DNA of 40,962 nucleotides from a virus. The translations under genes and the position numbers were made by a program. Under the pieces are notes generated by a model. The model searched no databases. It was not told where the DNA came from and was given only the letters and a program-made list of their open reading frames with translations. Positions 10,625 to 16,028 of the stretch are shown here, one piece after another. Every line of letters begins with the position of its first letter. Within the stretch, counting starts at the first letter, position 1. The stretch covers positions 1 to 40,962 of the IMG/VR virus record IMGVR_UViG_3300042887_000614. One strand, given 5' to 3'.

Positions 10625-10645
10625 CCATCCCTTCGGGGATGGTTT
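10625..10645 (+). terminator. UUCG hairpin terminator
   Basis: CCATCCC-ttcg-GGGATGG (10625-10642) followed by TTT, eight bases after the stop of the 68-aa gene. Short U-tract, so probably a partial terminator. Confidence 0.6.
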
Positions 10646-10722
10646 GACACCAGTTATCTATCCTCGGGCGCAGGGCGCGTGTGAGTGACAAGCGCGCTAT
10701 ATAGCGTGCCCTCCCCACGTGG
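10644..10722 (+). repeat. Intergenic repeat, copy 1 of 3
   Basis: Starts TTGACACCAGTTATCTA and ends in TATAGCGTGCCCTCCCCACGTGG. It shares CCAGTTATCTA, GCGCG blocks and the TAGYGYCCC end with copies at 11515 and 12341. It is less conserved in the middle than copies 2 and 3. It lies between a terminator and the copy B promoter. Confidence 0.65.
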
Positions 10723-10725
10723 AAC

Positions 10726-10754
10726 TTTACTTAACGGCGCTGTCGTGCGATAGT
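10726..10754 (+). promoter_or_regulatory. Early promoter, copy B
   Basis: TTTACT (10726-10731), 17 bp, GATAGT (10749-10754), about 70 bp before the first paralogue gene. Same ACTTTACTTA block as copies A and C, with TTCACTGACA just downstream as in copy A. Confidence 0.55.
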
Positions 10755-10820
10755 GTATTCACTGACAGGGAATTCTCTTTGTCGGTATTTTTCAATCGTT
10801 CATTTTATGGAGATATGAAC

Positions 10821-11462
10821 ATGAGCAAAGCAAAAGCACCCGTGGAAGCATCCACATCCGTTTTCACTTCACTGAAGGATTTGGGTTATCAGCAAGCTGG
10901 TAATTTTGAAAAGTCCATCACAATGGCGCAGTATGCGCTGGACAACATCACAGGGTTCCCCACTGATGTGCCCACTGAAGCGAAAGATTCGCTGTATGAA
11001 GGGTATCGCATGAAGTTCAACGAACTGCAACCCGCGAAGATGTACGCTGTGATCAATGATCATTATGTGCTGGCATCGCAGGAACACATCGAAGCTAAGA
11101 ACGTGGAGAAAATCGAAGTGGGCGTAGCTTACGCTTACAGCTACAGTTCGCAGGAATTCGGAAAGCTAGCGAACACGAACCCTGCGCTTCATGCTTTGAT
11201 CAAAGCTGTGCGTGAAAAGTGTTCTACCTATTGTTCCAATAGGCTGTCAGACTTGAAGCGTGCCGCGAAGAACATCTTGAACAGGGATAAGACACGCGAA
11301 CGGACAGCGAATAAGGACTTCGCTGAATTCGTTGAAGCATGGTTCAAGGATACAGCACCTGACAGACTGAAGTCCGCATCAGCGCGTGGTGATGCTTCAG
11401 CAGACAGCAAGCGCTTCAATGAAGCGAAGGTAGCGTTCATGGTGAAGTGGAACACTGCCTAA
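10821..11462 (+). CDS. Early paralogue 1, unknown function, 213 aa
   Basis: A 213-aa soluble, Lys/Glu/Ala-rich protein without membrane segments or known catalytic motifs. I take ATG 10821 because TGGAG lies 8 bases upstream; upstream in-frame ATGs lack a site. Residues from about 15 to 155 align with the 199-aa protein at 11686. The shared core starts KIEVGVAYAYSYSSQEF and stays identical for 28 residues. The gene has its own promoter and a perfect terminator, a monocistronic arrangement that in a dense phage genome implies high or separately timed expression. A structural or sequestering early protein is possible. I do not recognise the family. Confidence 0.8.
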   Translation: MSKAKAPVEASTSVFTSLKDLGYQQAGNFEKSITMAQYALDNITGFPTDVPTEAKDSLYEGYRMKFNELQPAKMYAVINDHYVLASQEHIEAKNVEKIEVGVAYAYSYSSQEFGKLANTNPALHALIKAVREKCSTYCSNRLSDLKRAAKNILNRDKTRERTANKDFAEFVEAWFKDTAPDRLKSASARGDASADSKRFNEAKVAFMVKWNTA

Positions 11463-11467
11463 CATTC

Positions 11468-11502
11468 AGCCCCCAGACCCACAAGGTCTGGGGGCTTTTT
11501 TT
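11468..11502 (+). terminator. Strong intrinsic terminator
   Basis: AGCCCCCAGACC - cacaa - GGTCTGGGGGCT, a perfect 12-bp stem, followed by six further T. Ends the transcript of paralogue 1. Confidence 0.95.
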
Positions 11503-11514
11503 CGTCCCGCTATT

Positions 11515-11594
11515 TTGATACCAGTTATCTAAGGCGAGCGCGTGAAGTGAGCGCGGCTGGGCAAGCGAGTTAAATAGTGCCCCATCCCCCCGTG
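11515..11594 (+). repeat. Intergenic repeat, copy 2 of 3
   Basis: Begins TTGATACCAGTTATCTAAGG, continues with GAGCGCG-tgaagt-GAGCGCG and GTTAAATAGTGCCCC. Closest to copy 3 at 12341. Lies between the paralogue 1 terminator and the copy C promoter; in this copy the final CCACG/CGTGG arm is degenerate (only CCCCCGTG). Confidence 0.7.
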
Positions 11595-11598
11595 AGAC

Positions 11599-11628
11599 TT
11601 TACTTAAGAGGCTTGTTTCGGTTACTGT
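11599..11628 (+). promoter_or_regulatory. Early promoter, copy C
   Basis: TTTACT (11599-11604), 18 bp, TACTGT (11623-11628), upstream of paralogue 2. The -10 is weak, but ACTTTACTTA and the downstream GAATTCTCT are shared with copy B. Confidence 0.45.
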
Positions 11629-11685
11629 TAGTCATCGGTTAAGAATTCTCTGGCCGATACATTGTCAATTTTTTAAGGGTCTATC

Positions 11686-12285
11686 ATGACTACATTTTCA
11701 TCGGTGCGGGATTTCGGTTATCAACAAGCCAAGACTGGCGACTCTCTGGTCGATCAGGCTCAGTATGCAATCGACAACTTTACGGGTTTTCCCGATGACC
11801 TCGCCTCTGAGGTCAAGACTGAGTTGTATTCTGGCTATCAAATGCGGTACAACGAGAACAACCCCGCCAAGTTGTTTGCCGTCATCAATGACCATTACGT
11901 TTTGGCGACTGAGGAACAAGCCAACAACAAGAAGATCGAAAAGATCGAGGTCGGTGTCGCCTATGCCTACTCATACTCAAGCCAAGAGTTTGGCAAGTTG
12001 GCGAATACTAACCCTGCCTTGCATGGTCTGGTCAAGTCGGTGCGTGAGAAGTTTTCCACCTATGCCTCAAACAAGCTTGGCGACCTCAAAAGAGAAGCCA
12101 AGAAGATTCTTAACTCAGGCAAGACCTCGACCAGATCGACGCTCGACTTCACTCAGTCGATGACCAAACAGTTTGAGGCACAAGAGAAGTCGGTCAAGGT
12201 GAAACAAGACCGAGGCGACACCACCGCCGACCTCGCCAAGTATCGGTTAGCAGTCAAGGCCTTCTGGTCGACCTACAACAAATAA
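11686..12285 (+). CDS. Early paralogue 2, unknown function, 199 aa
   Basis: A 199-aa homologue of the protein at 10821, similar over nearly its full length; the C-terminal 45 residues differ most. In the 28-residue block identical between the two, 20 of 28 codons are different synonyms, so the duplication is old or the copies were acquired separately, with strong selection on the protein. Start at 11686 follows AAGGG. Own promoter (copy C) and terminator. No catalytic motif, signal peptide or membrane helix is visible; function unknown. Confidence 0.8.
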   Translation: MTTFSSVRDFGYQQAKTGDSLVDQAQYAIDNFTGFPDDLASEVKTELYSGYQMRYNENNPAKLFAVINDHYVLATEEQANNKKIEKIEVGVAYAYSYSSQEFGKLANTNPALHGLVKSVREKFSTYASNKLGDLKREAKKILNSGKTSTRSTLDFTQSMTKQFEAQEKSVKVKQDRGDTTADLAKYRLAVKAFWSTYNK

Positions 12286-12302: not shown

Positions 12303-12329
12303 GCCAGACCTTCGGGTCTGGCTTTTTTT
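12303..12329 (+). terminator. Strong intrinsic terminator
   Basis: GCCAGACC-ttcg-GGTCTGGC (8-bp perfect stem, UUCG loop) followed by seven T. Ends the transcript of paralogue 2. Confidence 0.95.
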
Positions 12330-12340
12330 CGCCCCTCGGA

Positions 12341-12429
12341 TTTGAAGCCAGTTATCTAGAGCGAGTGCGCGGAGTGAGCGCGTTGGGCATGGACAAGGGA
12401 GTTAATTAGCGTCCCACGGTCACGTGGAG
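12341..12429 (+). repeat. Intergenic repeat, copy 3 of 3
   Basis: Begins TTTGAAGCCAGTTATCTAGA, continues with GCG-rich AGTGAGCGCG, then GTTAATTAGCGTCCCACG. Ends in the hairpin CCACG-gtca-CGTGG (12414-12427). Unlike the other copies it is not followed by an ACTTTACTTA promoter but by the candidate origin. Confidence 0.7.
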
Positions 12430-12554
12430 TCGGTGTTTTGCCCTGTTTGCATCGCCTACCGTTCTCAGAAATGAAGTCTGAGATGTGAAAGATAGATTCT
12501 GAGTTCACCCAATGACAGTTTTGGGGTTTGTTCTGGGGGGGTTGGCGAAAATCA

Positions 12555-13194: not shown

Positions 13195-13237
13195 TGAGTC
13201 TGGTTGAGGAGCATTCTTTGACCAGCACTATTTAGCC

Positions 13238-13255
13238 CTCCACGGTGACGTGGAG
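13238..13255 (+). promoter_or_regulatory. Leader hairpin CTCCACG-gtga-CGTGGAG
   Basis: A 7-bp stem with 4-nt loop in the 5' leader, 26 bases before the start codon of the 108-aa gene. The same CCACG/CGTGG hairpin and flanking TTAG and TTTGAA recur in the leader at 15986, suggesting a conserved post-transcriptional element. Confidence 0.6.
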
Positions 13256-13281
13256 TTTGAAGTCCCTCGGAAGGTAATCAC

Positions 13282-15940: not shown

Positions 15941-15985
15941 TATAGCTAGTGGGAGATGGTTTTTACCGAGCCCATTACTTAGCGT

Positions 15986-16001
15986 TCCACGTCAGCGTGG
16001 A
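15986..16001 (+). promoter_or_regulatory. Leader hairpin TCCACG-tcag-CGTGGA
   Basis: A 6-bp stem with 4-nt loop, 27 bases before the start at 16029. Position, arms and flanks (TTAGCGT before, TTTTGAA after) match the leader at 13238; the loop has changed while the pairing is kept, which supports an RNA structure. Confidence 0.65.
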
Positions 16002-16028
16002 TTTTGAAATACCAACTGGAGAGAGCAA

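Follow-up and report, generated by a model that had tools for sequence, protein, structure and literature searches.

Why should two neighbouring phage genes encode an identical stretch of protein in largely different codons? The genes in question, A and B, lie in a 40,962-base virus record of IMG/VR (IMGVR_UViG_3300042887_000614), the whole of which is the window analysed here (Table 1). The original prediction took them for an adjacent pair of paralogues with an identical core. This is confirmed: both open reading frames exist, and their proteins are 55% identical over 199 amino acids (E = 3e-77). The core peptide KIEVGVAYAYSYSSQEFGKLANTNPALH is the same in A and B at 28/28 residues. A direct count bears out that 20 of its 28 codons differ, leaving 56 of 84 nucleotides identical. 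Two explanations had been offered: strong constraint on the protein over a long divergence, or selection for DNA difference that keeps the copies from recombining.

Table 1. Positions of genes, core segments and regulatory elements at the A/B locus of the window
Feature	Position	Strand	Remarks
Gene A	10821..11462	+	213 aa, basic, pI ~8.9; A clade of the family
Gene A, alternative start	10815	+	ATG here too; would give 215 aa
Gene B	11686..12285	+	199 aa, pI ~9.0; tandem paralogue of A; B clade
28-residue identical core, DNA in A	11109..11192	+	
28-residue identical core, DNA in B	11941..12024	+	20/28 codons unlike A
Intrinsic terminator after A	11468..11504	+	clear; conserved in relatives
Intrinsic terminator after B	12303..12330	+	clear; conserved in relatives
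Element M1 (TTTGACACCAGTTATCTA), upstream of A	10643..10660	+	
Element M1, between A and B	11514..11531	+	
Element M1, downstream of B	12341..12358	+	
Element M2, before A	10696..10734	+	dyad-symmetric; overlaps -35 box TTTACT (10726-10731)
Element M2, before B	11569..11607	+	dyad; overlaps -35 box TTTACT (11599-11604)
Element M2, downstream of B	12401..12434	+	without TTTACTTA
Putative -10 box of A, GATAGT	10749..10754	+	17 nt after TTTACT; proposed from sequence and relatives
Putative -10 box of B, TACTGT	11623..11628	+	weak; proposed from sequence and relatives

An old tandem pair in an orphan phage family

More than 75 contigs of uncultured phages carry the A/B family, in most cases as two genes in tandem. 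Its relatives in IMG/VR fell into 78 groups of loci, the window included, in three scans by protein or profile, and a DNA-pattern scan added extra ones. Two copies are present in 51 of the 78 groups and one copy in 13, counted as such where the contig continued for 1.5 kb or more to each side; the other 14 lie too close to a contig end for deciding. No locus found in IMG/VR carries three copies. Within the window, 10821 is the likelier start of gene A, because relatives have TTG at the position equivalent to 10815.

A and B form an orphan family. Neither had a match in Pfam, PHROGs, PDB sequences or genome_contigs, and a tblastn search of GenBank phages returned no record with a homologue. AlphaFold modelled both proteins with confidence (pLDDT 88 and 89.5), and fold searches with the models against PDB and BFVD matched no known fold. 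These profile and structure searches, which had been proposed as a check, agree with the original prediction in leaving the function unassigned. The proteins are small, basic and mostly helical; with low confidence, they might be early proteins that bind nucleic acid or form oligomers. We infer that the region is early, and a high output of A and B would be plausible.

The large terminase of the window is most similar to those of 023Pt_psg01, of the pelagiphages HTVC023P and HTVC027P and of DSL-LC04 (48-52% identity; 48-51% for the first three), whose genomes are ~60 kb. The HTVC023P-type podophages (HTVC023P and HTVC027P), 023Pt_psg01 and DSL-LC04 thus share a related terminase with the window but are without an A/B homologue by tblastn; the comparison with the HTVC023P-type podophages covered the terminase and its neighbours. 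Candidate homologues of A and B next to the terminases, a 199-aa gene each in HTVC027P and 023Pt_psg01 and a similarly sized gene in DSL-LC04, proved unrelated on comparison.

The A copies and the B copies form separate, well-supported clades, which indicates that the duplication is ancient. The order of A followed by B is kept in nearly all relatives. Duplication has also recurred, since the family contains a second paralogue class (D-C) and younger independent duplications (L195, L093, the L149 group and L227).

Both genes are under strong purifying selection, with dN/dS ~0.11 for each when this check on the pair was run. Synonymous sites are saturated: pS is 0.80 between A and B of the window and 0.65-0.94 between orthologues. 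Together with the ancient clades, these values support the prediction of strong protein-level constraint over a long divergence. Constraint is not uniform along the protein. The consensus sequences of A and B are 82% identical over the core and 23-33% over the C-terminal quarter, which is nevertheless conserved inside each class (72-80%) and has class-specific positions. A C-terminus that is conserved by class yet divergent between A and B is a sign of subfunctionalisation.

Transcription units around the two genes

Each gene had been credited with its own promoter, terminator and intergenic repeat. The terminators are clear, at 11468-11496 and 12303-12322 within the spans of Table 1, and the repeat is present in three copies around A and B, so this part of the prediction stands. 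The promoters fare less well: neither received a score in a strict sigma-70 scan, though relatives repeatedly have a conserved TTTACTTA box, followed ~17-18 nt downstream by a -10-like one.

The repeat consists of two elements, M1 (TTTGAnACCAGTTAT), placed between terminator and promoter, and M2, a dyad of the form TTAAnTAGnGTCCCAC-N-GTGGAACTTTACTTAA with the -35 box inside its right half. M1 and the dyad M2 together span 10643-10734, 11514-11607 and 12341-12434 of the window at nearly constant spacing, and the distance from the start of M1 to the right half of M2 is nearly fixed at ~79-81 nt. Other early genes are also preceded by an M1-type element, and very distant relatives have both parts. 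This arrangement and its recurrence, before other early genes and in distant relatives, support the existence of dedicated transcription units. M1-M2 is probably an operator/promoter module for some regulator. A reading of the repeats as mobile cassettes was dropped, as unrelated early genes have this element in front of them too.

Several further features of these units were observed. More M2-like dyads lie at 15974-16007 and 13227-13260, just upstream of other rightward genes, which suggests a regulon. In the most distant relatives (L100 6564-6764 and L036 4515-4715), the sequence of M2 is changed and its inverted-repeat symmetry is kept. Three loci (L058 1099-2480, L059 3564-4940 and L060 679-2060) have gene A and its promoter inverted between M1 elements of unchanged orientation. 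Three others (L010 on contig 3300044627_001534, L014 and L114) have a small extra gene between the two copies, without an M1-M2 of its own. Lastly, an inverted repeat, GTTCAT...ATGAAC, at 10790-10823 of the window, read by eye and present in relatives too, may form a hairpin whose loop would hold the GGAG ribosome-binding site of gene A.

Synonymous divergence within and between genomes

The number of changed codons in the window pair is close to what chance would give. When the core is randomly recoded by each gene's codon use, 18.0 +/- 2.3 codon changes are expected against the 20/28 observed (P = 0.27), so the codon count that drew attention to the pair is, by itself, no evidence of selection on DNA. 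Over the whole pair, 66 of 108 synonymous differences compare with the 68.0 that the codon use of the two genes predicts. Nucleotide identity in the core falls below the same recoding null (56 vs 64.1, P = 0.005). The longest identical stretch between A and B, in any register, is 8 nt, where a synonymous shuffle gives 12.0 nt (P = 0.03) and codon-shuffled unrelated genes a mean of 9.0 nt.

A comparison across genomes points to an additional effect. At matched protein identity, synonymous difference is higher within a genome than between genomes, and identical runs are shorter (Wilcoxon with lineage clusters as units: p 0.0002-0.035 and p <0.001, respectively), in a contrast that partly mixes orthologues with paralogues. 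Because of this mixing, a second test was confined to first-versus-second copies, with clusters permuted at six thresholds. In the A/B class, synonymous difference is 0.65-0.68 between copies of the same genome and 0.63 between copies of different genomes (p <0.001 to 0.046), and the longest run is 9.2-9.6 vs 10.6-11.0 nt (p <=0.02). Own-genome proteins of this class are more alike than cross-genome ones. No own-versus-cross effect was found in the D-C and other paralogue class.

The excess is concentrated where 6-10 consecutive residues are shared (+0.09 to +0.115, p <=0.0003). In stretches of 1-2 residues (+0.01) and of 11 or more (+0.02 to +0.06) it is not significant. Matched-site, path-disjoint contrasts have the same gradient, with p ~0.01-0.05 at most thresholds and no significance at the widest. 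A synonymous shuffle that keeps protein and codon use finds long runs below expectation in 19 of 24 clusters (p = 0.0016), while between-genome controls deviate in the opposite direction. Codons compared out of register have no excess. The younger duplicate L195, at 76% protein identity, has a synonymous difference of 0.67 vs 0.44 expected.

The effect is modest, at 2-4 percentage points overall and ~10 in the shared stretches of 6-10 residues; many genomes were required for so small an effect, and several statistics and thresholds were run. Three kinds of control agree on a modest own-pair excess, with p about 0.01-0.05 in their phylogeny-strict versions. Strict phylogenetic contrasts depend strongly on the threshold and on which representatives are chosen (p ~0.002 to 0.6). 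For the first 35 pairs they gave p 0.03-0.33, and run-based p 0.04-0.66. A naive permutation over 22 genomes (P ~2e-4) was not accepted, because 16 of the 22 form one clade. A z of ~6 in one class of the enlarged test most likely came from mis-assigned copies and was set aside for a test with checked classes.

The main rival to selection on DNA difference is plain neutral saturation, by which an old, constrained pair simply carries randomised synonymous codons. The codon counts of the window pair, over the core and over the whole length, are those that saturation would give; pS between orthologues is equally saturated, and most of the early strict tests fell short of significance. It does not, however, account for own-genome pairs that exceed the between-genome plateau, for their shorter runs or for the gradient towards long shared peptides, and a common genome composition should act in the opposite direction. 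We regard saturation alone as possible, but doubtful.

Alternatively, A and B could use different codon dialects for another cause, such as different timing or level of expression, or avoidance of tRNA competition. Of 210 gene pairs of the window, A and B indeed have the largest codon-usage distance, and over 48 genomes its median is 0.041 vs 0.016 for other gene pairs; in these genomes the two copies generally show a stronger codon bias than their neighbours and than the genome. A coordinated displacement of the two in opposite directions was rejected, with a dot product near zero, and this lack of coordination counts against dialects; that each gene has its own, uncoordinated bias also counts against a purging of shared runs. 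Dialects also predict neither an excess confined to in-register codons, nor its concentration in long peptides, nor an effect that survives a shuffle preserving codon use, and we consider them improbable. That A and B were acquired independently, from different sources, is more improbable still: the two genes do have separate closest relatives in other phages, the finding that had been set as a sign of such acquisition, but in those relatives too they stand side by side, with order and intergenic units unchanged, so that separate relatives here mean an old duplication and co-inheritance.

Selection for DNA difference thus gains moderate statistical support. The window pair taken alone does not show it; the within-genome excess, the shorter runs and the concentration in long peptides speak for it, with the effect absent in the other class and p ~0.01-0.05 in the strictest tests.

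Recombination, copy loss and the fate of shared runs

Single-copy genomes record how a copy can be lost. The second copy is missing from L050, whose close relative L015/L049 has the pair, and from L121 as compared with L120. Both genomes keep the first copy followed by a hybrid repeat, of intergenic type on the left and downstream type on the right, with the switch point inside the M1/GC-rich part. These hybrids indicate that recombination between repeated units removes a copy, and are direct sequence evidence that recombination at this locus can delete copies.

The intergenic repeats that flank the genes of the window have runs of 11-12 nt in common, compared with 8 nt for the genes themselves. 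Since the deletions occurred in the longer-run repeats, identity between the gene bodies is no main recombination substrate today; the intergenic repeats, rather than the genes, are the present weak point of the locus. Most known homology thresholds lie above 8-12 nt, the length of these runs, and this counts against a recombination hazard. The shortest k-mers of common assemblers are about as long as, or longer than, the runs concerned (8-23 nt), so an assembly artefact is unlikely.

We lean towards A and B being ancient, subfunctionalised tandem twins, with shared DNA runs purged between the constrained copies. This builds on the old duplication, the purifying selection, the saturation, the within-genome excess and the hybrid repeats of single-copy genomes, and takes recombination hazard to be the selective agent. 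One orphan gene of the early region would have been duplicated in tandem long ago, both copies being kept and separately transcribed. The N-terminal and central domain would be common to both and tightly constrained, and the C-terminal helices specific to each class. Neighbouring copies could recombine, with the loss of one, and lineages with long identical DNA runs would be purged, or drift to synonymous differences favoured. The pairs that survive would have similar proteins and unusually dissimilar DNA, above all in long shared peptides. The repeats, held by function, would have little room to diverge, while the genes would be free mainly at synonymous sites. Genomes with long shared runs would lose or homogenise a copy and then vanish from view; selection on each codon would be unneeded, as the loss of unstable genomes would be enough.

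Known systems resemble this locus in part. As in subfunctionalised tandem paralogues, old duplicates lie side by side, both under purifying selection, and residues specific to each class are found in part of the protein. Ordinary subfunctionalisation does not, however, predict that proteins of the same genome are more alike and their synonymous codons less alike. Concerted evolution by gene conversion has in common with the locus that same-genome proteins are slightly more alike than cross-genome ones, but its classic DNA-level signature is absent: own-genome copies have the higher synonymous difference and the shorter runs. Avoidance of direct repeats is known in compact genomes, and the depletion of identical runs able to cause deletions is common to both cases. 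What differs here is that constrained paralogues diverge by in-register synonymous changes, whereas repeats are tolerated in the intergenic elements. We found no direct precedent in the literature on repeat avoidance and phage duplicates.

A more specific form of the purging of shared runs, which we put forward more tentatively, is site-targeted synonymous divergence between constrained tandem paralogues in natural phages. Identity would be weeded out where a shared peptide would otherwise give long runs, at ~8-15 nt, shorter than is usually considered recombinogenic.

The analysis describes an orphan gene family, carried by more than 75 contigs of uncultured phages, whose transcription-unit element is strikingly conserved. 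If shared runs are indeed purged, the A/B pair would be a natural, quantitative case of synonymous codons shaped by the need to keep duplicates from recombining, and the shortest shared run that is still costly would become testable. It would also bear on how phages retain duplicates and on the stability of duplicate genes in general.
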